DNA from: Weissella bombi
GTDB taxonomy: Bacteria; Bacillota; Bacilli; Lactobacillales; Lactobacillaceae
Assembly (NCBI RefSeq): GCF_900094835.1
Contig: NZ_FMAO01000006.1
Coordinates: 1 to 64,000 of the forward strand
Direction of reading: 5' to 3'
DNA length: 64,000 bases
Shown: positions 6,424-50,062 of the stretch, piece after piece
How positions within the stretch are numbered: position 1 is the stretch's first letter
How the letters are laid out: every line of letters starts with the position of its first letter
Notes under the pieces: model-generated
Database searches by the model: none
What the model was told of the DNA's origin: nothing
What the model saw: only the letters and a program-made list of their open reading frames with translations
Made by a program: the position numbers and the translations under genes

Positions 6424-8793
6424 ATGGCTAATCCATTACGTAAAATTATTGAAAGTGATAAAGGGACATTACGTCGTTTGGGTCGCGTGGCCGATAAAGT
6501 AGAAGCGTATGCCGACGAAATGGCGGCTTTGTCTGATGAAGAGTTACAAGCGAAAACACCATATTTTCGTGAATTATTGAAAAAAGGTAGTACCTTAGAC
6601 GACATTTTACCAGAAGCCTTTGCAGTTGTACGTGAAGGAGCTAAGCGTGTCTTGGGTCTTTACCCATTCCGTGTACAAATTATGGGATCAGCAGTATTGC
6701 ATGGTGGTAATATTGCCGAGATGAAGACAGGTGAAGGTAAGACTTTGACAGCAACGATGGCTGTCTATTTAAATGCCTTACCACAAAAAGGTGTCCATGT
6801 TGTGACGGTTAATGAATACCTATCACAACGAGACGGTGAAGAAATGGGACAATTGTACAAGTGGTTAGGTCTAACTGTAGGTATTAATTTGACTGAATTG
6901 TCACCTGATGAAAAACGTCAAGCTTATTTAGATGATATTACATATACAACCAACTCAGAAATTGGGTTTGATTACTTACGTGATAACATGGTTGCACGTA
7001 AAGAAGATCGTGTGCAACGTGGCTTGAATTTTGCCCTAGTTGATGAGACTGACTCAATTCTAATTGATGAGGCGCGTACACCATTGATTATTTCTGGTGC
7101 ACCTGCGCAAACAAGTACTCAGTTGTACATTCGTGCTGATCGATTTGCAAAATCATTGATTGAGGACGTGGATTTCAAGGTTGATCATGAATCAAAATCT
7201 GTTTTGTTAAACGATAAGGGGATTGCTAAAGGTGAGAAGTACTTTAACCTAGACAATCTTTATGGTCCTGGTAATTCAGCTTTGACACACCACATTGATC
7301 AAGCTTTGCGTGCAAATTACACGATGTTTAACAACAAAGATTATGTTGTGCGTGATGGAGAAGTAGTATTAGTTGATGCCTTTTCTGGGCGTATTCAAGA
7401 GGGACGTCGTTTTTCTGACGGTCTTCATCAAGCACTTGAAGCAAAAGAACAAGTGCAAATTCAAGAAGATAATCGTGCGATGGCTTCGATTACGTACCAA
7501 AACTTGTTCCGTCAATATAATAAGTTGTCAGGTATGACTGGTACAGCTAAAACCGAAGCTGACGAATTCCGTGAAATTTATAATATGGAAATCACGACAA
7601 TCCCAACTAACAAGCCAATTCAACGTATTGATGAACCAGATTTGTTGTATCCAAACTTAAAGTCAAAGTTTAATGCAGTGTTGCAACTAGTGACGGAGTT
7701 ACATAAAAAGGGACAACCAATTTTGATTGGTACTGTAGCCGTTGAAACGTCAGAATTGTTATCACAATTGTTAGATAATGCAGGTATTCCGCATAATGTT
7801 TTGAACGCTAAGAACCACGCACGTGAGGCGGAGATTATCGCTAATGCTGGCCAACGTGGTGCTGTTACTATCGCTACTAACATGGCTGGTCGTGGAACTG
7901 ATATTAAGCTAGGCCCTGGTGTTACTGATTTGGGTGGACTAGCAGTTATTGGTACTGAGCGTCATGAGTCACGTCGAATTGATAATCAATTACGTGGTCG
8001 TTCAGGACGTCAAGGTGATGCTGGTTATTCACAATTCTTCTTGTCATTGGAAGATGATTTGATGATTCGTTTCGGTGGTGAACGTATTAAAACGTTGATG
8101 GAAAGTATGAATATGGGTGATGAGGATGCTGTTATTCGTAATCGATTGATTACGCGTTCAGTTGAGTCAGCACAAAAGCGTGTTGAAGGAAATAATTACG
8201 ATTCACGTAAGCACGTTTTGCAATATGATGATGTTATGTCACAACAACGTAATGCTTTCTATCGTGATCGTAATCGTGTTATTGATGAAGATAAATCATT
8301 GCGTGATGTATTGCTACCAATGGTTAAGCGTACGATTGACCGTGTTGTGCAAAACCAAACTAAGGGTAAGCCAAAGACTTGGGATTTGGAAGCCATCGTT
8401 GATTTTGCACAATCAACAATTGTACCAGTTGGTTCAATCACAGTTGATGATTTAGCAGATAAGAAGACACCACAGGCCATTTCAGATGAAATCTACCGTC
8501 GTGCAAAGCTTGTGTATGATGAAAAGTTACATGACCTTGGTGATGACGAAGAGCGTCTATTGCAATTTACACGTGTTGTGATTTTACGTGTTGTTGATTC
8601 ACAATGGACTGATCATATGGAAGCAATGAATCAATTACGTGATTCAATTCAATTACGTGGCTATGGTCAATTGAATCCATTGATTGAGTATCAAAATGAA
8701 GGTTTCCGAATGTTTAATGACATGATTGCAGGTGTTGAATATGATGTTATGCGTCTATTTATGAAGTCTGAAATTCGTCAAAATGTACGGTAA
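6424..8793 (+). CDS. secA: Preprotein translocase ATPase SecA
   Basis: A 789-residue motor that pushes unfolded secretory proteins through SecYEG. Visible: Walker A MKTGEGKT (~100-107), the DEAD-like [16 protein letters not shown], the pre-protein binding domain, and the second helicase lobe with [12 protein letters not shown] and [11 protein letters not shown]. The protein ends at about the helical scaffold region ([10 protein letters not shown]). The Cys-rich zinc-binding tail found in many SecA proteins is absent, as in several lactobacilli. GAGAGGGA lies upstream of the ATG. Confidence 0.98.
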
Positions 8794-8820
8794 ATAATAG
8801 CATTATGATTTAATGCATTG

Positions 8821-8856
8821 ATTGAGGTTGGGATGGATATCTCAACCTCAATTTTT
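8821..8856 (+). terminator. Rho-independent terminator between secA and prfB
   Basis: ATTGAGGTTG pairs perfectly with CAACCTCAAT around a ~12-base loop, followed by five Ts. It ends 22 bases before the prfB start. Confidence 0.75.
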
Positions 8857-8878
8857 CAATATGATTGGAGGAGCAGGT

Positions 8879-9994
8879 ATGGAAATTGCTGAAGCACGGC
8901 ATAAAGTAGCTGATATGGCGGCAGAGATTGAAAAATTTGGGGAATCGCTAGATTTAGATGCTTTAAATGATGAAATTGCAGCTAATGAAGCTAAGATGAT
9001 TGCACCAGATTTTTGGCAAGATAACGTTGCTGCACAAAAAGTTATTGATGAAAATAACGTTTTAAAAGGGCGTCGTGATGACTATCTTAAGCTTACGGAT
9101 AGTGTTGAAAATGTAGAAACTGCCATAGAGCTATTAAATGAAATCTATGATGAAGATATGGCACAAGAAATGGAAAATGATTTAAATCAATTAGCAGATG
9201 ATTTGTCTGCCTATCGACTAGCACAGTTGCTAAATGAGCCATATGATAAGAATAATGCTATTTTAGAAATTCATCCTGGATCAGGTGGTACGGAGTCGGC
9301 CGATTGGGGGGCCAATTTACAACGTATGTATACACGCTGGGCAGAACAACATGGCTTTAAAGTTGATATCATGGATTATCATCCTGGGGATGTTGCTGGT
9401 ATTGATTCGGCAACATTGAAAATTACGGGACATAATGCTTATGGATATTTACGTTCAGAACGTGGGGTTCATCGTTTTGTACGTATTTCACCGTTTGATT
9501 CTGCTGGACGTCGCCATACGTCGTTTGTATCAATTGATGTAATGCCAGAATTAGATGATTCAGTTGATATTGATATTAATCCGGCTGATGTTAAAATGGA
9601 TGTTTATCGTGCTTCTGGGGCAGGAGGACAGCATATCAATAAGACTTCTTCAGCGGTTCGTTTAACGCATATTCCAACGGGAATCGTTGTTGCATCACAA
9701 CAACAGCGTTCGCAGTTTCAAAATAAGGATACTGCATATGGTATGTTGCGAGCTAAATTGTATCAGTTAGAGATGGATAAAAAAGAACAAGAACGAGCAG
9801 CTATTGCGGGTGATCATTTAGAGAATGGTTGGGGATCACAAATTCGTTCATATGTTTTCCAGCCATATCGAATGGTAAAAGATCATCGTAATAACTTTGA
9901 ATCTGGAAATCCGCAAGCCGTGATGGATGGTGATTTAGATCCGTTTATAAATGCCTATTTGCGTTGGCGATTGTCTGAACAAAATCCTGAATAA
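8879..9994 (+). CDS. prfB: Peptide chain release factor 2, without programmed frameshift
   Basis: A 371-residue RF2 that recognises UGA and UAA stop codons. The stop-codon-reading tripeptide is SPF (RISPFDSAG) and the catalytic loop is SGAGGQHINKT. Start is ATG 8879, eight bases after GGAGGA; further upstream the frame runs through the terminator hairpin. Most prfB genes need a +1 frameshift at a CTT-TGA-C site near codon 25. Here the region reads GES-LDLDAL in one continuous frame, with no TGA. Confidence 0.96.
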   Translation: MEIAEARHKVADMAAEIEKFGESLDLDALNDEIAANEAKMIAPDFWQDNVAAQKVIDENNVLKGRRDDYLKLTDSVENVETAIELLNEIYDEDMAQEMENDLNQLADDLSAYRLAQLLNEPYDKNNAILEIHPGSGGTESADWGANLQRMYTRWAEQHGFKVDIMDYHPGDVAGIDSATLKITGHNAYGYLRSERGVHRFVRISPFDSAGRRHTSFVSIDVMPELDDSVDIDINPADVKMDVYRASGAGGQHINKTSSAVRLTHIPTGIVVASQQQRSQFQNKDTAYGMLRAKLYQLEMDKKEQERAAIAGDHLENGWGSQIRSYVFQPYRMVKDHRNNFESGNPQAVMDGDLDPFINAYLRWRLSEQNPE

Positions 9995-15599: not shown

Positions 15600-15832
15600 C
15601 AAGAAACAATGAATGACCTAGTATGTGATATTCAATAGTTTAGCGAGCAGGAGATGGTGAGAGCCTGCCTATGGAAGCATAGAATTTCAGTCAGGAGTTC
15701 ATCAGTTAAACATTGATGCGGTTTATCACCGTTAACAGATAACCGAGGGTAGTCTTTTGAGACTACTAAAATTGGGTGGTACCACGTTAATGAGCGTCCC
15801 TTCGATAGTAATATCGAAGGGACTTTTTTATT
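15600..15832 (+). promoter_or_regulatory. T-box riboswitch, phenylalanine-specific
   Basis: This 5' leader has the conserved T-box GGGTGGTACCACG at about 15774-15786. A strong terminator follows (GTCCCTTCGATA / TATCGAAGGGAC plus six Ts, 15796-15829). Stem I contains a specifier region reading GAATTTCAG, giving codon TTC (15686-15688) followed by A, which is correct for tRNA-Phe. Uncharged tRNA-Phe would pair with the specifier and with TGGT in the bulge, stabilise the antiterminator and switch on pheST. Confidence 0.93.
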
Positions 15833-36836: not shown

Positions 36837-37760
36837 ATGCAAAAACTTGTTGTCATTGTTGGTCCTACGGCTGTTGGAAAAACAGCTTTATCATTAAAAA
36901 TTGCGCAAAAATATAATGGGGAAATTGTTTCAGGCGATTCTATGCAAATATATCGTGGGTTAGATATTGGTACTGCTAAAGCAACTCCAGAAGAGCAAGC
37001 ACAGGTACCACATCATTTGATTGACATTGCAGACCCAACTGAAAATTATTCGGCAGCAAAGTTCGTAGAGGCTGCACAAAAAGCAATTGATGATATTGCT
37101 AATCGAGGTAAATTACCCATTTTAGTCGGAGGTACTGGATTTTATGTGCAGGCATTGTTGGGTGATCGTCCGCTAGCAGTGTTGCCGGATATTGATGACC
37201 CCGATTTTGTATCACATTGGACGCAGGTTGCCCATGAGCAAGGTGAAGAAAAAGTTCGAGCAGCTTTAAAAAAAGTTGATGCAATTAGCGAAGCACGAAT
37301 TTTACCAGGCCAAATTCGTCGCTTGGTGAGAGCACTATTAATTAGTACACATATTGGAAAACCATTTTCATCATTACAACCGGAACCTAAGAGACGTTAT
37401 GATGCACTAATTATTGGGTTAACGACTGAACGTCAACTTTTGTATGAGCGTATTAATAAACGAGTGGACTTAATGATGACGGCCGGTATTTTAGATGAAG
37501 CACGATTTGTTCAAACGTTGCCGGCGGATACTACGGCGCAACGAGCGATTGGTTATAAGGAGTTGTTTGATTATTTGACGGGGACTGGTAGCTACGAGGA
37601 CGCGGTTGCTAAGTTAAAACGTAATTCACGACGGTATGCTAAACGTCAGATGACTTGGTTTAATAATCAGTTTACTGACATAAATTGGTACGACTTGATA
37701 CAAACACCTGACCAACTAGACCAAATTGTGTACCAATTAAACCAATTTATGTCAGAATAG
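36837..37760 (+). CDS. miaA: tRNA dimethylallyltransferase
   Basis: A 307-residue enzyme that adds a dimethylallyl group to A37 of tRNAs reading UNN codons. The P-loop is VGPTAVGKTALS, then GDSMQIYRGLDIGTAKAT and VGGTGFYVQALL, and the tRNA-binding QRAIGYKE and RNSRRYAKRQMTWF at the C-terminus. Length is standard. miaA followed by glnR-glnA is common in Firmicutes. Confidence 0.97.
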   Translation: MQKLVVIVGPTAVGKTALSLKIAQKYNGEIVSGDSMQIYRGLDIGTAKATPEEQAQVPHHLIDIADPTENYSAAKFVEAAQKAIDDIANRGKLPILVGGTGFYVQALLGDRPLAVLPDIDDPDFVSHWTQVAHEQGEEKVRAALKKVDAISEARILPGQIRRLVRALLISTHIGKPFSSLQPEPKRRYDALIIGLTTERQLLYERINKRVDLMMTAGILDEARFVQTLPADTTAQRAIGYKELFDYLTGTGSYEDAVAKLKRNSRRYAKRQMTWFNNQFTDINWYDLIQTPDQLDQIVYQLNQFMSE

Positions 37761-37825: not shown

Positions 37826-38173
37826 ATGAGTGGACGAGAATTGCGACGTGATTTGGCTGTCTTACCGATGAGTGTTGTACGTGAATTGACGGGTTTAACA
37901 GATCGCCAAGTTCGCTATTATGATCAGCAAGGTTTAGTTGAACCACAAAGAGGTGCAGGTAAACAACGTCGATTTTCTTTAGATGATGTTGATCGTCTAC
38001 TCCAAATTGCTGAGTATTTAGATGCAGGCTATACAGTAGCGGAAATTCGAGAAGTTGATGAGAAAAAGCTTCGTAAGCAAAAAAATACGGCACCTTCCGA
38101 AGAGAATTTACGCCATATGTTAGCAGATGAACTATTGAACATAGGCCGTTTTAATGGACAGCAGAAATTTTAA
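37826..38173 (+). CDS. glnR: Nitrogen regulator GlnR (MerR family)
   Basis: A 115-residue repressor of nitrogen genes. The MerR-type winged helix is [43 protein letters not shown]. The short C-terminal tail ([19 protein letters not shown]) is the segment that, in B. subtilis, contacts feedback-inhibited glutamine synthetase. GGGAGG precedes the ATG. The stop lies 34 bases before the glnA start. The perfect GlnR operator upstream indicates autoregulation. Confidence 0.95.
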
Positions 38174-38207
38174 AAGTGGTATACAGGATAAAGGAGACGT
38201 AAGTTTA

Positions 38208-39554
38208 ATGGTACGTAGAGCATATACAAAAGATGATATCCGACAGAAAATCGCAGATGAAAATGTTGAGTTTTTGCGCTTGCAATTCTCAGATGTTTTT
38301 GGAACAATCAAGAACGTTGAAGTACCTGTTTCACAATTAGAAAAAGTACTATCAAATAATTTGATGTTTGATGGTTCATCAATTGAAGGGTTTGTACGTA
38401 TTGAAGAATCAGATATGTATCTATATCCTGATTTAGCAACTTTCATGATTTTCCCATGGGCAACTGATGAACACGGTGGTAAAGTGGCACGATTGATTGC
38501 CGACATTTACACTGTAGATCGTGAACCATTTGCTGGTGACCCACGTAGTAATTTAAAGCGTGTGCTTAAGCAGATGACTGACGATGGTTTTACAAAGTTT
38601 AATATTGGAACTGAACCTGAATTTTTCCTTCTTAAATTAGATGAGAATGGTAAGCCAACAATGAACTTAAATGATAAGGGTGGCTACTTTGACTTGGCAC
38701 CATTAGACATGGGTGAAAACACACGTCGTGAAATCGTCCTTGAAATGGAAAAGATGGGCTTTGAGGTTGAGGCAGCTCACCACGAAGTTGCTCCAGGACA
38801 ACATGAAGTTGATTTTAAGTATGCCGAAGCTCTAGATGCAGCTGATAATATCCAAACATTTAAGTTAATTGTTAAGACAATTGCCCGTAAGCATGGGTTG
38901 TATGCAACATTCTTGCCAAAGCCTATTTCAGGTATTAACGGTAACGGTATGCACGTTAATATGTCATTGTTTACTGATGAAGGTAATGTTTTCTATGATG
39001 AGAATGGTGAATTACAACTTTCAGAGACAGCTTACCACTTCTTAGGTGGTGTATTGGAACACGCTGCTAATTTCACAGCTATTACTAATCCAACAGTTAA
39101 CTCATACAAGCGTTTGACACCTGGTTATGAGGCACCTGTATATGTTGCTTGGTCAGGTTCAAACCGTTCACCAATGGTCCGCGTGCCAGCTTCTCGTGGT
39201 AATTCAACACGTTTGGAGTTGCGTTCTGTTGATCCAACTGCTAACCCATACTTGGCCTTTGCTGCAGTTTTGGCTGCTGGTCTTGATGGTATCGAGCATA
39301 AGTTGGAGCCAAATCACGCAGTTGACCGTAACATCTACTTGATGGATGAGGGTGAGCGTCGTCGTGCAGGCATCACTGATTTGCCTGATACACTACTAGA
39401 AGCTGTTGCTAAACTACAAGACGATGAGACTATTCAAAAAGCTATCGGTGAACATATGTCACGTACTTTTGTTGATGCTAAGCGTCTTGAATATCAAGCT
39501 TACCGTCGTGAAGTTTCACAATGGGAAATTGATAATTACTTAGAACAATACTAA
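38208..39554 (+). CDS. glnA: Glutamine synthetase type I-alpha
   Basis: A 448-residue enzyme joining ammonia to glutamate. Active-site segments: [50 protein letters not shown] and [34 protein letters not shown]. The length and the absence of an adenylylation loop place it in the GSI-alpha group, controlled through feedback inhibition and GlnR. ATG 38208 follows AAAGGAG; an earlier in-frame start overlapping glnR is unlikely. Confidence 0.97.
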
Positions 39555-39572: not shown

Positions 39573-39616
39573 AAAACAACGCTAACTTAGTCTTAAGTAG
39601 CGTTGTTTTTTGCATT
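39573..39616 (+). terminator. Rho-independent terminator of glnRA
   Basis: AAAACAACGCTA pairs with TAGCGTTGTTTT, followed by Ts. Confidence 0.9.
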
Positions 39617-39694
39617 ATCGTTGTATGATAGTAATAGGTGGTATTTTATTTGCCATCATTTATAATTAATATAATAAAAATAGGAGGGGTTGAG

Positions 39695-40573
39695 ATGGAA
39701 AGTACGCCATATATTCAGACAGATTTACCGTCAGATCAATCCGCATTACAACAAAAGTTACAAACAAAGTTAGATTATTTAGCAGATATTCAAGCTGCGG
39801 TTGTATCGGGGGATGATCGCAAAATTTATGAACTACTTGATAATCAAAAGTATGATTTAAAGGTACGTCATGAATCAGAAACAGAGTCTAATCGACAACT
39901 ATCAACATTAGTGGATGATATCAAAGATGAGCTAAGTCATCATTTGGGACAGAAACTAATTAGTTACTTATCAAAGACATTCCCATTTTTCTATTATGAA
40001 GAAACACAATTGGGTGTTTTTCAGTTGTATTTTGGAAATTGGTGGGATCGTCGTCATTTCGGAATTTTAGATCCATTGGCTGTTAATTTTATTTTTGATG
40101 ACGATGAATATGAAAAGCTGGTCAAGGCAGTTAGTTTGGCTGAACGTGGACAACGTTATAATGCTCAAGTAATCGAAGATACTACACGAGCAAATGAGAC
40201 TTTGCAAAAAATTGTGGATGGTCAAAATCAACGTGATGCTGAACGAACACAGTTATTAGCGCAGTTGTCTAGTAAAGAAGAACGCGGTGGCCTATTTGGA
40301 AACCGTGGTCAGTCTGAACAACGTGAAGTGCTAAAAGAAAGGTTAAAGGATTTGGATGCCGCCGATGCTAAGGCGCAAACTGTTCCTGCATTAATTGCTG
40401 AGAATAATGCACAAATTTTGAACTACTCAAAGGAAGATACAATTTTAATTTATGAGCAACGTGCTATTACAGATGCGTTTGGTTCTTTTGATAGCTTCCA
40501 ACAAGCAGTTGTTAATTTATATGAAAGTTATGTATCAAATTTAGCAGCTACTTCTGAGCAAGGAGGCGCTTAA
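39695..40573 (+). CDS. Unknown protein A of a three-gene operon
   Basis: A 292-residue, highly charged cytoplasmic protein. I do not recognise the family. Residues ~15-85 are mostly helical and charged. A central aromatic stretch follows (LSKTFPFFYYEETQLGVFQLYFGNWWDRRHFGILDPLAVNF, residues ~93-135). A probable coiled-coil spans ~150-235 (Gln/Glu/Arg rich), then a helical end. There is no signal peptide and no visible nucleotide-binding motif. ATG 39695 follows AGGAGGGG, and a TATAAT lies at 39661-39666. The next gene starts two bases after the stop. Confidence 0.75.
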   Translation: MESTPYIQTDLPSDQSALQQKLQTKLDYLADIQAAVVSGDDRKIYELLDNQKYDLKVRHESETESNRQLSTLVDDIKDELSHHLGQKLISYLSKTFPFFYYEETQLGVFQLYFGNWWDRRHFGILDPLAVNFIFDDDEYEKLVKAVSLAERGQRYNAQVIEDTTRANETLQKIVDGQNQRDAERTQLLAQLSSKEERGGLFGNRGQSEQREVLKERLKDLDAADAKAQTVPALIAENNAQILNYSKEDTILIYEQRAITDAFGSFDSFQQAVVNLYESYVSNLAATSEQGGA

Positions 40574-40574
40574 T

Positions 40575-41612
40575 ATGACAAAACATCTACAACAACGTGT
40601 TAATTCATACGTCAATTTGCTTGCAAATGATATTGGTCGTATTCAAGAGTTATTGGCACAAGTTAACGAGTTGGTAAGTGCTGATAATCCTAAAAAAGTT
40701 CACTTATTAGCTCAGCAGTTAACGACTGCTTCTTTGGATACAGAGTGGGTTGTTGCACCACGTCAGTATTCGCAAGCTGATTGGTATATGCTTGCTTTTG
40801 ATCGCTTATTAGGATTTGCTGGAGTGGCGGCTTATGATATTTTGACGCCAGCAGAACGAGAAGAATTGACGTTAGTATTTCCTGATTTAGATGAGCCAGC
40901 AACTTTTGAATTTGAGGTTAATCATGATGATAATGGTGGGGCTTATTTTACTGAATTAGGAACAGGTAATCGTCTATTTTACTGGTCATTGACGCGTCGT
41001 CAAATTTATTTCAGCGCTGATGCTATTACGGATTTGTTAGTTGCAAACTTCCGTAAGAAGACAACTGCTGCCCGCATTCGTCCAGTTGCCAGTTTACTAA
41101 CAGCATTTGGTCGCTACATGGAAGCAGAGTTTGGTTATCAAGTTGATTACAATATTTTAGAAACACAAGATGATTTCTTGTATCCGTTAAAGCAAAAAGA
41201 GATGCCAGCAGGTATGCTAGATCGCTTATTTGTTTTGTCAGCTGATTCAAATTATTTCTTACAGGCTATTCCAAATGGTGCAGGCCTTGTATTAAATAAT
41301 GGGGTTGAGGTACGAGTGTTTTATGTGAATGATCCTTCAGTACAAGATGCACAACGGTGGCATTTCCAAGTAGTTGATGGACAGGATGCGATTTCATGGT
41401 TAGATGTTTTGTTGGATTATGATTTTATTGGTGCGTGGTATCTCGGAGAACGCCGTTATTTGGCTATTGAAAGTGAACCGCTTGTATTTCAAGAACAAAT
41501 TCAAGAACAAATAAGTGAAAGTGTGCCAACACCACATGCTGAAAGTGAAAAAAACGTTAAATCTGTTAAACCTGAGGTGCTAATGCCTAAACAAGCTGAG
41601 GAGTTATCATAA
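40575..41612 (+). CDS. Unknown protein B of a three-gene operon
   Basis: A 345-residue soluble protein of no family I recognise. Residues 1-150 are alpha/beta with many aromatic residues (WYMLAFDRLLGFAGVAAYDIL, NRLFYWSLTRRQIYF). The middle has IRPVASLLTAFGRYMEAEFGYQ. The last ~45 residues are a Gln/Glu/Ser/Lys-rich, probably disordered tail. AAGGAGG within the end of the previous gene serves the ATG, and gene C begins at the base after this stop, so the three products are probably made in fixed proportion. Confidence 0.75.
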   Translation: MTKHLQQRVNSYVNLLANDIGRIQELLAQVNELVSADNPKKVHLLAQQLTTASLDTEWVVAPRQYSQADWYMLAFDRLLGFAGVAAYDILTPAEREELTLVFPDLDEPATFEFEVNHDDNGGAYFTELGTGNRLFYWSLTRRQIYFSADAITDLLVANFRKKTTAARIRPVASLLTAFGRYMEAEFGYQVDYNILETQDDFLYPLKQKEMPAGMLDRLFVLSADSNYFLQAIPNGAGLVLNNGVEVRVFYVNDPSVQDAQRWHFQVVDGQDAISWLDVLLDYDFIGAWYLGERRYLAIESEPLVFQEQIQEQISESVPTPHAESEKNVKSVKPEVLMPKQAEELS

Positions 41613-42137
41613 ATGCCAGAGTTAGATATTGCACAGTATTTAAGGCAAGCTAGGGATCTGTCGCATGTCATTAGTAATCAGTGGGAGATGCCAATTGGAC
41701 CGAAGCAAGTGTTATTAAATGATTATTTGAATTTGGATGTTACATTAAGTAAACTGATTATGGCAACTCAGGCAGTTATGATTAATGTGCCTAGTGAATC
41801 TGTAACTCGTGATGAGAATGAAATTAGTGATTTGTATGCACAAGCATTGGTTCAGTTTTTGACGATTAGTTTAAAGCAACAGTGGACCCACTTAATGGTT
41901 ATGACGGATGAGGATATTGCACAATTTAAAAGATTTCCGCAACGTCATCTAGCACATCAGTACATGGGTATTAAAACGATGCTATTGAATAGCTATCATC
42001 AAAAACGACAGGGTGACTTTTCACATGCTTGGCGTTCTTTTCTGAAATTAGGATTAGTCGAGCTACAATTGACACAAAATACAATTGATAAGACAGTTCG
42101 AAAAATTTTAATGACAAGTACGCTTGATTCATTATGA
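41613..42137 (+). CDS. Unknown protein C of a three-gene operon
   Basis: A 174-residue, mostly helical soluble protein with no recognised family. Features: IAQYLRQARDLSHVISNQWEMPIG at the N-terminus, LFLTISLKQQWTHLM-like helices in the middle and a basic, amphipathic end (QKRQGDFSHAWRSFLKLGLVELQL). GAGGAG precedes the ATG. The promoter of the tRNA-Arg gene overlaps its last codons (42124-42152). Confidence 0.7.
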   Translation: MPELDIAQYLRQARDLSHVISNQWEMPIGPKQVLLNDYLNLDVTLSKLIMATQAVMINVPSESVTRDENEISDLYAQALVQFLTISLKQQWTHLMVMTDEDIAQFKRFPQRHLAHQYMGIKTMLLNSYHQKRQGDFSHAWRSFLKLGLVELQLTQNTIDKTVRKILMTSTLDSL

Positions 42138-42152: not shown

Positions 42153-42191
42153 AGATAAGGCGGATGCATATTCGTAGTATCTATTGTGTAT

Positions 42192-42265
42192 GCAACTGTA
42201 GCACAACTGGATAGTGCACTCGGTTTCTACCCGAGAGGTTGTGGGTTCGACTCCCACCAGTTGCA
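42192..42265 (+). tRNA. tRNA-Arg (anticodon UCU)
   Basis: A complete cloverleaf: acceptor GCAACTG/CAGTTGC, D-stem GCAC/GTGC with GG in the loop, anticodon stem CTCGG/CCGAG around TTTCTAC (anticodon TCT at 42226-42228), five-base variable loop, T-stem GTGGG/CCCAC with TTCGACT loop, discriminator A. CCA is not encoded. It reads AGA (and AGG) codons. Confidence 0.95.
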
Positions 42266-42267
42266 TT

Positions 42268-42315
42268 AAAAAAGTCCTATAAACGTTGATTAACAGCGCT
42301 TATAGGACTTTTTTT
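42268..42315. terminator. Bidirectional terminator after tRNA-Arg
   Basis: AAAAAAGTCCTATAA-CG pairs with CG-TTATAGGACTTTTTT. It serves the tRNA on one strand and the GT-C-like gene, whose stop codon overlaps it, on the other. Confidence 0.88.
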
Positions 42316-44113
42316 ATTTTGTCGTATCAATATTGTAAGTATTTAATTTTTTCGTGCGAAGTGTAATCGATAATAAGAAAACTATTAAGAATAACCAGCT
42401 CAAGTCAGAGAATATAATTAATAACGTCGATAGTTTAGTTGATTCATATTGTAAAGTAAGTTCATTGTAACCTTTAATGCCATGGACCTTTATCGTGCCA
42501 ATTGCTGTTTTGGCAATTGTGGCTGCTTTTAATTGCTGGTGATTAAATCGTACCTGTGTATTTTCATAGACAAAAGCAGGTATTTCAATATCATGTCGTT
42601 GGTTTTGATGCCAAGAAATACTTAGCACGCCATGAGTTAGGACTTTCTTTGTAAAGAGGCTATGTTTTTCTGAAACTTGAGCAGTGTATAAATTATAGTA
42701 GTCTAAATAATGATTAACTTTATTAATCGGTAAATAATCTGGTGTTGTACGATCAACTGTATTTATAAACTGGCTTAAATCCTTATTGTGCCAAGCCGGC
42801 ATAAGATCAACAACAGTATTAACAGGGTGCCCGTTTATTGGATGCAATATTAAGTCCTTTTGATTAATAGCACCACTTTGGGCAAGTGTTGTTGTATTTT
42901 TTGTATTCATAATGACGTTGTTTGATACGGATCCAGTTAGACTGATAGTGCTAGCTATTGCCAATATTGTCACAATAAATGTCATAGTAGTATTTACATT
43001 GAAGGTAACGGTTGTTACTAATTCTTTAATAGCTAGTGTTGTACCTAATAGGATGAATATTTCACCAACCAATGTAAATCGAAACGAGAATTGTAGGAAA
43101 TTCATTATTTGTGGCAAATGTGCTTGAATTGATGACCAAGGTGTTAAATCACTACCTAATGTAAAGTAGACGAGACCGGAAATAATCAGAATTCTGCTGA
43201 GGATACTTAAACGTTTCCAAAATAAAATAATTATTCCTAGACCAATAATAGCTAAAATAGCTAGAATGTTTTCAACTATTGAAATGTGATTCCCAAGCAG
43301 TGGTACACCACTAGTTGATAGAAAATTAAATGGATTAAAAATGTTGGCTGTTACATCAATTGAAGTTGGTGGAACTAGTGTATTATGACCTGCTATTTGT
43401 ATGTAGGGTAAGATGGTATTTAAGCATAAAATAATTGCCGTAAAAATGGCAGTTATTAAATACTTAACCATTGCAATCTTGTGTTGGGTTTTGATAAAAC
43501 CGATAATGAATGGCGCAATTAGTACAGGAATTGCAAATGACGCACTCAACAGGTGTCCTTGAACTTGTAAGCTAACAGCTAATGCTAGCAATATTGCATT
43601 TTTGAATTTAACATTGCCTTGTAACATGTCAATCATTGGTAAAATAATTAAAGGTAATAGTGCCAAGCCAATTGATCGCCAACCTGATACAATAAGAAAA
43701 GATCCGATAGCATTGGAAGCTAAATAAATAACGCCTAAACCGATACTTATACTTTTATTAAAGCCAATTTTTGTCGATACATAGTAGGTTGTTAAACCGG
43801 CTAAAAATAAGACTAAAATATTGATAATAATTTGAAACTTTAACCAAGAACCGGCTACTAATAAAATGATGCTCAACAAGTAGGTTAGAAAGGGACTATA
43901 TAATGCATTGACAATTCGTCCGGATTGCTGGAATGAATATAAATTAAGCATTGAAAAGTTTAAATGTTTAATTTGCATTGCACTTTCGTATAGACGACCA
44001 TAATGGAAGTACCCATCGACACCTAAGACGGGTGTTTTATTTAATATAATCGGACTAGTAATAAAAATGGCAACTACTAAAAAGATAAATATTGGTTTCA
44101 CATGTTTTTTCAT
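42314..44113 (-). CDS. Polytopic membrane protein, GT-C-like (6-pyruvoyl-tetrahydropterin synthase-related domain)
   Basis: A 599-residue protein with about eleven membrane helices in the first ~390 residues, an extracellular domain of ~160 residues and a final helix. After helix 1 it has LGVDGYFHYGRLYESAMQ, which resembles the acidic/His loop of GT-C glycosyltransferases. The family is usually annotated as PTPS-related membrane protein, a name that does not describe its function. A role in envelope glycosylation is inferred. AGAGGAT precedes the ATG. No partner gene is adjacent. Confidence 0.75.
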   Translation of the reverse strand: MKKHVKPIFIFLVVAIFITSPIILNKTPVLGVDGYFHYGRLYESAMQIKHLNFSMLNLYSFQQSGRIVNALYSPFLTYLLSIILLVAGSWLKFQIIINILVLFLAGLTTYYVSTKIGFNKSISIGLGVIYLASNAIGSFLIVSGWRSIGLALLPLIILPMIDMLQGNVKFKNAILLALAVSLQVQGHLLSASFAIPVLIAPFIIGFIKTQHKIAMVKYLITAIFTAIILCLNTILPYIQIAGHNTLVPPTSIDVTANIFNPFNFLSTSGVPLLGNHISIVENILAILAIIGLGIIILFWKRLSILSRILIISGLVYFTLGSDLTPWSSIQAHLPQIMNFLQFSFRFTLVGEIFILLGTTLAIKELVTTVTFNVNTTMTFIVTILAIASTISLTGSVSNNVIMNTKNTTTLAQSGAINQKDLILHPINGHPVNTVVDLMPAWHNKDLSQFINTVDRTTPDYLPINKVNHYLDYYNLYTAQVSEKHSLFTKKVLTHGVLSISWHQNQRHDIEIPAFVYENTQVRFNHQQLKAATIAKTAIGTIKVHGIKGYNELTLQYESTKLSTLLIIFSDLSWLFLIVFLLSITLRTKKLNTYNIDTTK

Positions 44114-44315: not shown

Positions 44316-44439
44316 TGTTGTGTTTGTGGTATCTCACAAACTGCAACCACTCATGACCTGTATTAAGTGATTATTTTGATCCGCGGGTATTGGTGAGTCT
44401 AAGTTTTTACAAAAATTTTTTATGGAGGTCTACAGACTC
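44316..44439 (+). promoter_or_regulatory. Ribosomal protein L21 leader RNA
   Basis: A ~120-base untranslated leader with local pairing (TTTGTGGTATCTCACAAA and others). It sits directly before rplU, where Firmicutes carry the L21 leader thought to mediate autoregulation. The call rests on position and partial structure only. Confidence 0.5.
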
Positions 44440-45272: not shown

Positions 45273-46451
45273 GTGACGTTTGCGACTGAAGAAAAATTAC
45301 AATGGTCATTTGAATTAGCAAATGACGCGGTGTATTTTGCGTCATCAGATGGAAAAACTAAGTACTATGGATTTGGAAAGCAGGCCGAGTTAATTGGCGG
45401 TTCATTTGACCAAGTGCAAGATTGGTTAGTTAAAGTACAACAAACAAATCCACAACCAATTTTTGGTGGCTTTGCGTTTGATGATCAACAAATTGATGAT
45501 TCTGAATTGATGAATGGTTATTTTTTTCAACCGGCCGTTGTTTATGATGTTGTCAAACAAGAAATAATTGGCCAAAATATTGATCTAGTTCGCCAGACAC
45601 AACCAAGTGGTGCAGAAGTTTTGACGACAAAAGATGAAACAGATTGGCCTACCAGAATTCAGGCTGCTATTGATGATATGCAACAAAATTCAGTGCATGA
45701 AAAAGTTGTTTTGGGACGTCAACGACAAATTACATTGTCGTCGGCTTTAAATGAAGGCAAGTTAATTAAAAGTTTACAGGAAACCCAACCAACTAGTTAT
45801 CATTTTGTTTTAAAACATTGTGGTGAACTATTTATTTCAGCAACACCGGAACGATTGGTTAAAGTTGCTCATGGTCAAGTAGCGACTGCTGCAGTAGCGG
45901 GTACGATTAAACGTGGTGAAAATCGGTCTGATGATGAAAAATTGGCTGATGAATTATGGCACGACCAAAAAAATCGAATTGAACATCAAACCGTTGTCGA
46001 AACAATCAAAGCAAATTTGCAGGCAGCTAATATTACAGATTTAAAATTCCCGACTACACCTCAAATTTTAAAGAATCCACAAGTACAACATTTGTATACG
46101 CCAATTACGGGTAAACTAACGGATGATAATAATTTGTTAGGAATTGTGAAGCAGTTGCATCCAACGCCTGCTTTAGGTGGTAAGCCAAGAGAATGGGCCT
46201 TGTCTGTTATTTCAAGTATCGAAAAGTATCCACGTGGATTATTTAGCGGGCCTGTTGGTGTGATGACGACAGACGGTGATGGTGAATTTATTGTTGGTAT
46301 TCGGGCAATGTGGTATCGCAATAATATGGTGAATTTATTTGCTGGTGCTGGCATTTTAGCTGGTTCTGATGCCCAGATGGAGTATCAAGAGACTGGCCTA
46401 AAATTATTACCAATGATGAATGTATTAAAGGAGCAAACATTACATGACTGA
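45273..46451 (+). CDS. menF: Isochorismate synthase (menaquinone branch)
   Basis: A 392-residue chorismate-using enzyme that makes isochorismate. The C-terminal catalytic part shows KVVLGRQRQITL, FISATPERLVKV, AAVAGTIKRGEN, LHPTPALGGKPREWAL and ERYPRGL/FSGPVGVM-type segments (here EKYPRGLFSGPVG), with IRAMWY near the end. GTG start 45273 after GGGAGG. It overlaps menD by eight bases. Confidence 0.95.
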   Translation: MTFATEEKLQWSFELANDAVYFASSDGKTKYYGFGKQAELIGGSFDQVQDWLVKVQQTNPQPIFGGFAFDDQQIDDSELMNGYFFQPAVVYDVVKQEIIGQNIDLVRQTQPSGAEVLTTKDETDWPTRIQAAIDDMQQNSVHEKVVLGRQRQITLSSALNEGKLIKSLQETQPTSYHFVLKHCGELFISATPERLVKVAHGQVATAAVAGTIKRGENRSDDEKLADELWHDQKNRIEHQTVVETIKANLQAANITDLKFPTTPQILKNPQVQHLYTPITGKLTDDNNLLGIVKQLHPTPALGGKPREWALSVISSIEKYPRGLFSGPVGVMTTDGDGEFIVGIRAMWYRNNMVNLFAGAGILAGSDAQMEYQETGLKLLPMMNVLKEQTLHD

Positions 46452-48123
46452 TAGTTTAACAACTAATATTAAACATTTACTAACCGCACTTGTATTACAA
46501 GGAGTTCATGACTTCGTTGTATCGCCAGGTTCAAGAACAACACCTGTTGCATTATTGTTAGCAGAAATGCAGCAAGTGCGCAATGACGTACGCGTTACAG
46601 TAGATGTGGATGAACGTTCAGCTGCTTTTTTTGCTTTAGGAATTGCTAAAACAATGCATCAACCGGTTGCTTTGTTAGCAACGTCTGGAACAGCAACAGG
46701 AAACTATTTGCCAGCAATTATGGAAGCAAGTATTTCACATATTCCATTAATTGCGCTAACAACCGATCGTCCACAAGAATTGCAACAAATAGGAGCACCA
46801 CAAACGGTTCATCAAGAAAACTTATATGGTGAACATACAAAAGCTTTTACGACAATATCTGTACAGGATGACCATGAAGATGTTACGGATTATATTGATT
46901 ACCGGGTACAAGAGTTAGTTGGGTTGACGATGACTAAGCCGGCTGGCCCAATTCAAATTAACTTACCGTTACGTAAGCCTTTAATGCCAATGTTAGGTGA
47001 AGCATGGCCAACAGTAGCAACACAACAAATTTTGGTGGGACAACAGCGCATGAGTTGGCAAAACGTGCAAGCTTTAGCAGCTTTGTTACGTAAGCCCAAA
47101 GCAATGATGTTATTGGGACCGGATGAAATCGGTTGGGATATTGATAAGTTCAAACAATTAGCAGCTCATTATCAATTACCAGTTTTAGCAGATGTATTGA
47201 GCAATTTCAGACCTAGTGAATATGCGATTAGTGGGATTGATAGTTTGTTAGCAGCAGATGTTATAAAAGACGAACTAAAACCAGAAATAGTTATTCGTTT
47301 TGGTGGTACACCAGTTTCAGCTAAAGTAACAGCCTGGTTACGTGATGCTAAAATTCCAGTGGTCCAAATTGGTCAAGAACATGCAGGACATGATCATGCA
47401 CGTCATGCTCATACAACAGTGATTGCTGATGCTGATGCGGTGGTTGCAGACTTACTTGCTGAACCAGGTGTTAAAAAATCTACATTTTTGGAACAATGGC
47501 AGAAAGTATCAGCAACATTACTAAATTTAGTTGCAAAAATGGACGATCAAAGTGCGGAATATCAAATTCCAGCTGCGTTAGCAAATTTGCCTGAAAATGG
47601 TCAATTGTTTATTGCAAATTCAATGCCAATCCGTGATATGGATAATTACTATGTGCCTAATCACCCAGTACGAATTGCAGCTAACCGTGGTGCTAACGGA
47701 ATTGATGGTACTATTTCATCAGCTTTTGGTATGGCGATGACAGGAAAGCCAACGACATTATTAACTGGTGATTTGACTTTGTTCCATGACATGAATGGTC
47801 TAATGTTGAGCCATCAGGCGCATGCACCATTGACAATTGTAGTAGTTAACAATCAGGGTGGTGGAATTTTTTCTTTCCTACCACAAGCATCTGCAAAAGC
47901 TTATTTTGAGCCAATGTTTGGTACGCCACTTCCAATTGTGATTGAGCGTGTAGCTCGACTTTATGATGCAGAATATAAGCAAGTGGATGATCTAAATACG
48001 TTATATGAGTTAGTTCATAGACCTGCAACACGTTTACGAATTATTGAAGTTAAGAGTAATCGTGAGCAAAATGTCATTGCTCATGACAAGCTGACACAAG
48101 CAATTAAAGAGGCTTTATTGTGA
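46444..48123 (+). CDS. menD: SEPHCHC synthase
   Basis: A 559-residue thiamine-diphosphate enzyme joining isochorismate and 2-oxoglutarate. The N-terminal FVVSPGSRTTPVALLLAE and DVDERSAAFFALGIAK, with SGTATGNYLPAI, hold the substrate- and ThDP-binding site. The C-terminal LTGDLTLFHDMNGL with NNQGGGIFSFLP is the ThDP/Mg motif. Length is normal. It overlaps menF and menH by a few bases, so translation is coupled. Confidence 0.96.
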   Translation: MTDSLTTNIKHLLTALVLQGVHDFVVSPGSRTTPVALLLAEMQQVRNDVRVTVDVDERSAAFFALGIAKTMHQPVALLATSGTATGNYLPAIMEASISHIPLIALTTDRPQELQQIGAPQTVHQENLYGEHTKAFTTISVQDDHEDVTDYIDYRVQELVGLTMTKPAGPIQINLPLRKPLMPMLGEAWPTVATQQILVGQQRMSWQNVQALAALLRKPKAMMLLGPDEIGWDIDKFKQLAAHYQLPVLADVLSNFRPSEYAISGIDSLLAADVIKDELKPEIVIRFGGTPVSAKVTAWLRDAKIPVVQIGQEHAGHDHARHAHTTVIADADAVVADLLAEPGVKKSTFLEQWQKVSATLLNLVAKMDDQSAEYQIPAALANLPENGQLFIANSMPIRDMDNYYVPNHPVRIAANRGANGIDGTISSAFGMAMTGKPTTLLTGDLTLFHDMNGLMLSHQAHAPLTIVVVNNQGGGIFSFLPQASAKAYFEPMFGTPLPIVIERVARLYDAEYKQVDDLNTLYELVHRPATRLRIIEVKSNREQNVIAHDKLTQAIKEALL

Positions 48124-48926
48124 ACAAAACGATTATCGTAAATAATTATCAATATGAAGTTATGATTGAGGGTTCGGGACAACCCACATGGTTATTTATG
48201 CATGGCTTTATGGGAAGCATGGCTGAATATCAGCAAGTTAAACCTCAAGGAACACGAATCTATTTAAATTTATTAGGTTTTGGTCCAAATGCGCAGGTTG
48301 TTCAACCAGCTCAACGCTTTAGATGGCACGCACAGATTAATGATTTGAATGAGCTATTGAATCAATTAGGGGTGAAAAGTGTTAACTTAGTTGGTTATTC
48401 AATGGGTGCCAGATTAGCGTTAACCTATGCAACAAGGTTCCCTAAACGAATTAATAACCTTGTTTTAGAGGGTGGTACGGCAGGACTAGCAACGCAAGGC
48501 CTACGACAAAAACGTATTATTGCGGATAATAAAAAAGCGGCCCGTGTTGTTGCTCTTGGTATGGCGAAATTTATTGACGAATGGGAAAAGTTACCACTGT
48601 TTAATAGCCAACGTCAGTTACCAATTGAAAAGCAAAAATTTATGCATGAGCAGCGGGTTAGTCAATCTGCTGAAAACGTTGCAAACTCCTTATACTATTT
48701 TGGGACAGGAGCTATGCCTAATTTTTGGGGACAACTGACAATGATTCACGTACCGGTTGTATTAATAACAGGGATGAATGATCAAAAATTTACAATGATT
48801 AATCAAAAAATGAAGCAGAGATTACCACAAGTAACGTGGCACCAAGTAGTGAACGCAGGGCACAATGTACATTTTGAACAAACTGCGCTTGTGACGGATA
48901 TTCTCAATCATTTAGTAGCTGATTAA
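48120..48926 (+). CDS. menH: SHCHC synthase MenH (alpha/beta hydrolase)
   Basis: A 268-residue alpha/beta hydrolase. The nucleophile elbow is VGYSMGARLALTYA, the oxyanion region FMHGFMGSMAEY, and the catalytic His lies in NAGHNVHFEQ. It eliminates pyruvate in menaquinone synthesis, judged by its position between menD and menC. The GTG start overlaps the menD stop in a GTGA arrangement. Confidence 0.92.
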   Translation: MNKTIIVNNYQYEVMIEGSGQPTWLFMHGFMGSMAEYQQVKPQGTRIYLNLLGFGPNAQVVQPAQRFRWHAQINDLNELLNQLGVKSVNLVGYSMGARLALTYATRFPKRINNLVLEGGTAGLATQGLRQKRIIADNKKAARVVALGMAKFIDEWEKLPLFNSQRQLPIEKQKFMHEQRVSQSAENVANSLYYFGTGAMPNFWGQLTMIHVPVVLITGMNDQKFTMINQKMKQRLPQVTWHQVVNAGHNVHFEQTALVTDILNHLVAD

Positions 48927-48949
48927 TATCATTATTGGAGGTTGTTGTA

Positions 48950-50062
48950 GTGAAAATTCAGAAAATTACGCTTTATCCATTAATATTGACGCTAAAAGCG
49001 CCATTCAAGACAGCTCACGGGACAACTAAGCAACGACCAATTACCTTGATTGCAATGCAATTAACAAATGGTGTTGTCGGTTATGGCGAAGTGCAATCAT
49101 TTGCTGATAATCAATATGCGAATGAAACACATGACCAATCTTTAGCAGTGGTACAAAATTTAAGTCAGTTGTTGATAGGACAAATATTTGCTAGACCAGA
49201 AGATGGTGCAAATTGGTTAGCAACAAAAACACCGTTATCGTTTGCTAAATCTGCTATTGAAATGGCACTTTGGGATGCATATGGTAAGCAGATGCATCAA
49301 CCTTTAGCAGCATTGTTAGGTGGTCAAACAGATAAGGTGGCAGTCGGCCAAGCAATTGGAATACAAGAAAATTGGGAGACCACGAAACAATTAGTTTTGG
49401 ATGCAATTGCTCAAGGTTATCAGCGGATAAAAATTAAAATTAATCAAACGACAGATTTACAAACAGTCGCAGCGTTGGTAAAGGCTTTTCCAAATCAAAT
49501 GTTTTCATTAGATGCTAATGCTGCTTGGCGTGGGGATAAATTAGCCGATTTACAGTTATTGGATGAAGCAGGGTTGGCACTCATTGAACAACCGTATGCA
49601 GAGACGGCATGGTTAGAACATCAGCGTGGACAAGCTGCACTAACACGGTTAAAGTTAAGCTTGGATGAGTCGTTAAATGACATTGCTGATGTGAAAAAAG
49701 CGATTGCTAATCGAACAACAGCGGCATTAACGCTTAAGCAGGGAAAACTTGGGGGTATTACGCAGACTAAAGAAGCGATTAGTTTAGCTAATCAAGCACA
49801 AATGACACCATGGATTGGTGGCATGTTAGGTACCGGTTTAGGACGTGCGGTTGATTTAATTTTGGCGAGTTTGCCAGGTGCGAATACGATTCCGGCAGAT
49901 AGTGCACAGTTTGATCATTATTATGAGACTGATATTGCGACTAATTTACCTTATGTAAAGAAAGGCTATTTACCAGTACCGTTGCAGGATGGCATTGGCG
50001 TTACTTTAAATTGGCAGGCCATTAAACAATGTTTAATACACGAACCAATTGTTTACCAATAG
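48950..50062 (+). CDS. menC: o-Succinylbenzoate synthase
   Basis: A 370-residue enolase-superfamily enzyme. Catalytic Lys in RIKIKI, metal ligands in LDANAAW, IEQPY and SLDESLND, and the second catalytic Lys in TLKQGKLGG. Promiscuous members are also N-acylamino acid racemases, but the men context points to MenC. The GTG at 48950 has GGAGG eight bases upstream. menE, menB and menA are not in the window. Confidence 0.92.
   Translation: MKIQKITLYPLILTLKAPFKTAHGTTKQRPITLIAMQLTNGVVGYGEVQSFADNQYANETHDQSLAVVQNLSQLLIGQIFARPEDGANWLATKTPLSFAKSAIEMALWDAYGKQMHQPLAALLGGQTDKVAVGQAIGIQENWETTKQLVLDAIAQGYQRIKIKINQTTDLQTVAALVKAFPNQMFSLDANAAWRGDKLADLQLLDEAGLALIEQPYAETAWLEHQRGQAALTRLKLSLDESLNDIADVKKAIANRTTAALTLKQGKLGGITQTKEAISLANQAQMTPWIGGMLGTGLGRAVDLILASLPGANTIPADSAQFDHYYETDIATNLPYVKKGYLPVPLQDGIGVTLNWQAIKQCLIHEPIVYQ

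Follow-up and report, generated by a model that had tools for sequence, protein, structure and literature searches.

Among described proteins, those closest to the locus treated here are the dimeric all-alpha dUTPases (PF08761), which include the enzyme of the Staphylococcus aureus phage phiDI (Protein Data Bank (PDB) entry 5myd). Stl, the repressor of the S. aureus pathogenicity islands (SaPIs), has dimeric phage dUTPases among its known protein ligands (PMC5608427). Functions of dUTPases beyond hydrolysis are argued for in a recent review (PMC12524310). The present locus lies in a stretch of 64,000 nucleotides of Weissella bombi DNA (contig NZ_FMAO01000006.1, positions 1 to 64,000; hereafter the window) and comprises three plus-strand genes, A (39695-40573, 292 residues), B (40575-41612, 345 residues) and C (41613-42137, 174 residues). 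C appears to be a dimeric dUTPase that has lost its catalytic residues and is nonetheless kept under purifying selection, while A and B are probable partners from two families without a name. A sequence-only reading had proposed the three genes as an undescribed system. This holds, since A and B match no family and the unit is conserved across relatives, and no paper treating this locus by title and abstract was found in the open-access literature; the three genes are an undescribed conserved unit.

A direct Pfam scan of C from the window does not return PF08761. The family is instead recognized through orthologues, as the third gene at the same position in two other Lactobacillaceae genera matches PF08761 far above the cut-off (L041, E=2.1e-21; L042, E=1.2e-20), and these matching orthologues align end to end with the window protein. 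The phiDI enzyme in 5myd is also matched by a profile built from C proteins of which 10 are intact and five degenerate (E=1.3e-4). A profile from a mostly degenerate set of C proteins, compared with PDB sequences, gave nothing convincing, and PDB sequence searches with the single window proteins A, B and C gave chance-level matches only. Judged from these alignments, C of the window is a catalytically degenerate homologue of the dimeric all-alpha dUTPase, alike over its whole length. The earlier statement that none of the three proteins shows a known motif is thus valid for A and B but not for C.

The difference from the described enzymes lies in the active site. At the ExxE and ExxD metal-binding positions the window protein carries T and K, and L and Q, respectively, and the C-terminal N..RQ..Y motif is missing. 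All three motifs are kept in loci of Levilactobacillus, Lactiplantibacillus and Paucilactobacillus and in some others, and are gone in every C-bearing Weissella locus, in three named Periweissella species and in all loci titled Limosilactobacillus. Among 105 rows, C is degenerate in 73 and intact in 32; none of the four metal-binding acids is retained in 48, exactly three are retained in no row, and two are retained in a single degenerate row. Motifs were counted in 99 rows (30 intact and 69 degenerate, including the duplicates L094/L201 and L095/L164) and in six phage enzymes out of 35 records found. N..RQ..Y occurs in 28 of the 30 intact proteins, in none of the 69 degenerate ones and in all six phage enzymes. 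Two other motifs follow a different course: WTHL is present in 25/30 intact and 57/69 degenerate proteins, all of these from loci with A-B, and HAW..K.G in 26/30 and 64/69, while neither is found in any of the six phage enzymes (0/6 each). The window protein carries both.

Intact and dead states of C switch at least seven times on each of four trees (two from A and B combined, built by different methods, and one from each gene singly). Among the 110 tree rows at least four genomes are represented twice (L094/L201, L095/L164, L055/L132, L049/L141), and there are several strains of one species; a locus with a split A (L044, the same genome as L118) and a fragment (L108) were left out. Such counts carry no direction. 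It is the intact form that resembles the phage enzymes, so loss is the direction inferred, and the active site would have been lost repeatedly.

Dead C remains constrained. Of 18 pairs run, the nine dead-C pairs with synonymous divergence (dS) <1.2 have ratios of nonsynonymous to synonymous divergence (dN/dS) of 0.033-0.110 (L128/L129, 0.079; L130/L131, 0.095; L130/L132, 0.069; L131/L132, 0.069; L134/L135, 0.074; L143/L144, 0.033; L165/L168, 0.104; L169/L187, 0.110; L187/L189, 0.080). The sole intact pair below the same limit (L182/L204) has a dN/dS of 0.002. Pairs that include the window lie beyond a dS of 1.2: the comparison with L128 gave 0.063 at a dS of 1.95, and that with L129 gave no value. 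Dead C is therefore under purifying selection, though less strongly than the intact enzyme.

These values bear on the possibility that C is merely in decay, a superfluous dUTPase about to be lost and retained only through its membership of the operon. A trimeric dUTPase (PF00692) is encoded in 60 of 60 genomes, and the protein-level evolution of C is faster than that of A in most close pairs. Moreover, one stop within the matched C stretch is flagged in three of the 28 genomes of the genus (G001, G007 and G008). However, open C frames of 166-233 residues exist in all 28, the three flagged ones included, and the low dN/dS, the retention of HAW..K.G in most degenerate proteins and the survival of C after loss of A-B (see below) leave simple decay a very small chance. 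The trimeric enzyme, being redundant with C, would make the loss of catalysis tolerable. In the window its open reading frame (ORF) lies upstream of radA at 1577-2125 on the plus strand (PF00692 match at 1799-2116, E=1.8e-12), and this enzyme is expected to supply the activity that C lacks.

A second possibility is that C has kept enzymatic activity of another chemistry or on another substrate, for which whole-chain homology and the retention of part of the core could speak. The pattern of loss runs the other way: all four acids are gone in nearly half of the rows and even two are kept in only one degenerate row, the nucleotide-site residues beside the acids are mostly gone in degenerate C, and so is the C-terminal motif. 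An altered enzyme is accordingly improbable, with only a small chance of being correct.

The two genes upstream of C have no such described relative. Searched against Pfam, NCBIfam, PHROGs and PADLOC, the A and B proteins of the window gave no family match beyond chance level, and in profile comparisons with PDB sequences B gave nothing and A only coiled-coil-level matches. The closest proteins to A are those of W. sagaensis (94% identity) and W. hellenica (92%). The AlphaFold2 single-chain models have a mean predicted local distance difference test score (pLDDT) of 87.4 and a predicted template-modelling score (pTM) of 0.76 for A, and 88.5 and 0.82 for B. In A, four predicted strands (99-134) carry the conserved pattern PFF-Y-E...FGNWW-R..FG-LD and are followed by a coiled-coil hairpin formed by helices at 157-262, in agreement with the coiled coil noted from the sequence alone. 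B is predicted to have a helical N-terminus, two beta4-alpha modules (110-161 and 228-291) and a flexible tail (about residues 308-345, 41496-41612 on the plus strand) of low pLDDT (block means 51-64). The tail had been described as acidic and disordered; the low confidence fits the second term, and its composition is only mildly acidic (seven D+E against four K+R in 37 residues). Likewise, the end of C, described as basic, is so only marginally (three K+R, two D+E in 24 residues). Searches of the A and B models with Foldseek and VIA-align returned nothing at E<=0.001; what they did find were generic coiled-coil or alpha-beta similarities. Among these, residues 190-294 of B align with 2zfd_B in VIA-align (Z 6.2, root-mean-square deviation 4.8, 94 residues aligned), where a Z below 8 is below the tool's meaningful level. 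The resemblance to KA1/TBP-like modules has no sequence match beside it and may reflect only a common arrangement. A common origin of A and B was considered and set aside, as profile comparison gives it a probability of 0.1%.

In one public record of Limosilactobacillus fermentum, A is labelled 'exonuclease SbcC', B hypothetical and C 'dUTPase'. The likeness of A to SbcC, Rad50 and SMC proteins is limited to the coiled-coil hairpin, and where an enterococcal A gave weak matches to SMC/Rad50 entries of NCBIfam, these too lie in the coiled coil. Unlike those proteins, A of the window has only 292 residues and matches no ATPase family of Pfam or NCBIfam. With no ABC-type ATPase domain matched, the SbcC label is unsupported.

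All 28 genomes of the genus, that of W. bombi included, hold A, B and C, so that the three-gene arrangement first read from one sequence is real and not due to chance. In single-sequence searches of 60 related genomes, A and B were found in 32 and C in 31. A profile of A extends this to 217 of 330 Lactobacillaceae genomes and 25 of 40 genera, counts too high by at least one, as the sole match in its genus in G101 is an ABC transporter and thus a false A. An apparent fusion of A in one genome (an open frame of 1998 residues) proved to be an artefact of a masked stretch. A broader A profile added five genomes from a second family within the order, and a profile built from these five detected 31 genomes of this second family among 285 sampled across the order. 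One of the second-family A proteins is 82% identical to Enterococcus faecium WP_002295906.1, which stands in a plasmid record and is followed by WP_002295905.1, both annotated as hypothetical; this points to Enterococcaceae. Profile comparison confirms homology between the Lactobacillaceae and Enterococcaceae-group proteins for both A (98.1%, E=7.6e-14) and B (95.5%, E=1.5e-8). Among 299 genomes of the class, a profile search matched W. bombi itself, two Enterococcaceae-group genomes and one protein at profile positions 145-245, within the coiled coil. Among 348 genomes of the phylum such a search matched the window only, and A was not found in 50,697 phage records.

Wherever A was inspected, B is present as well. 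Of 119 loci that hold A, all 119 hold B too. The eight distant loci of the Lactobacillaceae, one with a split A, all have B behind A, though in L207-L210 and L213 B was matched weakly (E 1e-4 to 2e-6) and assigned partly by its position. B also stands behind A in all eight Enterococcaceae-group loci, of which five served to build the profiles, so that only L235, L242 and L243 are independent. In L226, B was found independently (E=3e-10). A and B are therefore families without a name that are paired in all inspected loci of Lactobacillaceae and Enterococcaceae. This pairing is obligate by genomics, and a physical interaction of the two proteins may be inferred from it.

Several further copies were noted in the course of these searches. 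Four genomes of the W. confusa group (G004, G013, G023 and G027) carry a second, diverged A-B pair without C, about 42% identical in A and 44% in B, located on the contig of the first pair at a distance of about 6 to 44 kb (for example L045 of G023 at 6738-8609, and also L160). In L044 (G034, 8757-9625), A is split in two frames, B is open (310 residues) and C is absent. L234 (CP033372.1, 418685-433500) belongs to a 760 kb 'plasmid' of L. fermentum DR9 that bears the core genes glnA, rplU, rpmG and nusB and resembles a misfiled piece of chromosome.

A further possibility is that the unit senses phage through a dUTPase, as in the Stl-dUTPase pair, or is some other anti-phage system. The precedent is that a dimeric dUTPase can serve as a protein ligand (PMC5608427). 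In contrast to the SaPI case, no repressor-like gene was found at the locus, and Pfam and NCBIfam scans of the window proteins gave no repressor or helix-turn-helix family match. No island carries the unit, which is common to all 28 genomes of the genus, so its presence is not patchy, and A is absent from the phage records searched. The defence-system matches amount to a Cas12a profile over about 50 residues of B (E=0.049), with nothing for A or C, and GapS6a for A reaches only E=0.17, far below the cut-off. This makes phage sensing or defence the least probable of the explanations considered here.

Whether C belongs to one obligatory assembly with A and B can be judged from loci in which they are found apart. 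Six genomes of the genera g40 and g43 (1.3-1.5 Mb) carry a dead C without A-B, and in all six loci, each inspected, neither A nor B adjoins C. In the family-wide A profile search two of these genomes stood among the non-matches and four did not figure among the matches. C has kept its place and lies between glnA and rplU (L244 and L245), between miaA and rplU (L247-L249), or upstream of rplU with neither landmark (L246). These lone C proteins retain at most one of the four acids and are hence dead too, and W93, W142 and K147 are kept in all six. Conversely, A-B occurs without C in the Enterococcaceae-group loci, in the genera g28, g29, g34, g35, g46 and g50, in G034 and in the second W. confusa copy. 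The coupling of the genes had been taken to suggest a complex. For A and B this is consistent with their joint presence throughout, and C is the gene that is found apart in relatives. As A-B occurs without C and C without A-B, an obligatory three-protein complex is the less fitting description, and an obligate A-B pair with a separable pseudo-dUTPase fits better.

The explanation that appears somewhat more probable than the others together, drawn from sequence comparisons, is one of two separable modules: an obligate A-B assembly, and a dead dUTPase kept for a non-catalytic role. A and B would form a two-subunit cytosolic assembly, to which A would contribute a coiled-coil arm on a conserved beta domain and B its alpha-beta interaction modules. 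C would derive from an active dimeric dUTPase that became linked to A-B in an ancestor within the Lactobacillaceae. With a second, trimeric dUTPase in the cell, its active site would have been free to decay and would have been lost repeatedly, including in Weissella. The protein would have been retained for a non-catalytic function, most likely binding or regulation. Since dead C survives where A-B is gone, its partner would not be exclusively A-B, although part of its surface (WTHL) may still contact that pair.

Several observations weigh against this two-module reading, and some of them favour the alternative that A, B and C form one three-subunit complex, in which dead C docks through WTHL and HAW and persists in the genera without A-B as a relic with a secondary function. 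C usually accompanies A-B: it is present in 53 of 111 genomes of the family, and a profile search found A in 47 of those 53. In the 78 measured loci that hold all three genes, these always share one strand, A and B are separated by -41 to +2 bases in 77 (by 396 in the remaining one), and spacing is as close as 0-1 base in the window. Residues specific to the cassette are retained whether C is intact or dead. What speaks most for the complex is that WTHL is missing from all six lone C proteins, against its presence in 57 of the 69 A-B-linked degenerate ones (Fisher p=9e-5, uncorrected for relatedness), as contact between C and A-B would predict; HAW..K.G is also found in only three of the six. 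Furthermore, the retained residues of C could belong to the core of the fold and not to an interface, and neither model of A or B has a confident fold match. A link between the tail of B and dead C was also considered. An extra B tail accompanies degenerate C in 59 of 73 rows and intact C in only two of 32 in a plain table (Fisher p=2e-13), but five independent tree pairs averaged 0.0 the same way, 0.4 the other way and 4.6 with no difference, and the coupling was dropped.

The tail itself is variable. In many Weissella and Periweissella it ends in a V-E-V-L-x-P-like peptide (KPEVLMP in the window), which is present in 25 of 110 rows. The tail reaches 130-152 residues in W. viridescens, W. uvarum and W. 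minor, where it is rich in alanine and glutamate where seen. The peptide also occurs in L102, in which C is intact, and in A-B copies without C. Its pattern is no proof that the B tail binds C.

Against the three-subunit complex stand the persistence of C without A-B in six genomes of two genera, that of A-B without C in the Enterococcaceae group and elsewhere, and the absence of WTHL from 12 of 69 dead and five of 30 intact C proteins that do have A-B. The complex is thus a doubtful reading, though one of some standing, and two separable modules remain the preferred one.

The surroundings of the locus agree with an independent transcription unit. In the window, miaA (36837-37760) and glnR (37826-38173) precede glnA (38154-39554, plus strand), which is an upstream syntenic landmark; tRNA-Arg(TCT) (42191-42266, plus strand) is the landmark downstream. 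An intrinsic terminator hairpin with a T-rich tail (39573-39609, plus strand; -16.9 kcal/mol, z -6.1) lies 3' of glnA and sets the three genes apart. Because this strong hairpin follows glnA, A, B and C probably form their own transcription unit; promoter-like matches were at chance level (20 against a mean of 17.5 in shuffles). Upstream, the frame of A extends without a stop to a GTG at 39638; the ATG at 39695, however, is preceded by AGGAGGGG at 39682-39689. The ribosome sites of B and C are AAGGAGG at 40560-40566 and GAGGAG at 41598-41603, respectively. With gaps of one base between A and B and none between B and C, the tight coupling and good ribosome sites reported from the sequence alone are borne out. 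Of 56 loci mapped across genera, 33 have glnA on the strand of A and no more than 1 kb before it, and the remaining 23 are elsewhere or lack glnA.

Other features of the window were noted in passing. Between tRNA-Arg and rplU, the minus strand encodes a membrane-type protein of 599 residues (42314-44113) that matches nothing in Pfam or NCBIfam even at E=10; an ORF of like size and strand lies at the same spot in L052 and L049, and not in L132 or L139. A ribosomal protein L21 leader (44335-44410, plus strand) and a T-box leader (15600-15804, plus strand) both match Rfam above the gathering score. Downstream of the L21/L27 genes, 45273-50062 holds ORFs that resemble menF, menD, menH and menC and that look like a run of menaquinone genes.

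The repeated inactivation and retention of a dUTPase is the more surprising element of this locus. An orthologue series at one locus, in part intact and in part repeatedly dead, makes a non-catalytic function of dUTPases testable as whatever the dead proteins still do. The A-B genes constitute a conserved pair without a name, carried by enterococci and by genera that matter for food and the gut; one public record annotates an exonuclease subunit here, another hypothetical proteins. Tentatively, and with rather less assurance than for the two-module explanation, the dead dUTPase may be a core non-enzymatic regulator of the Lactobacillaceae, repeatedly inactivated yet kept even without its operon partners, and wired to an ancient, undescribed A-B machine of Lactobacillaceae and Enterococcaceae.

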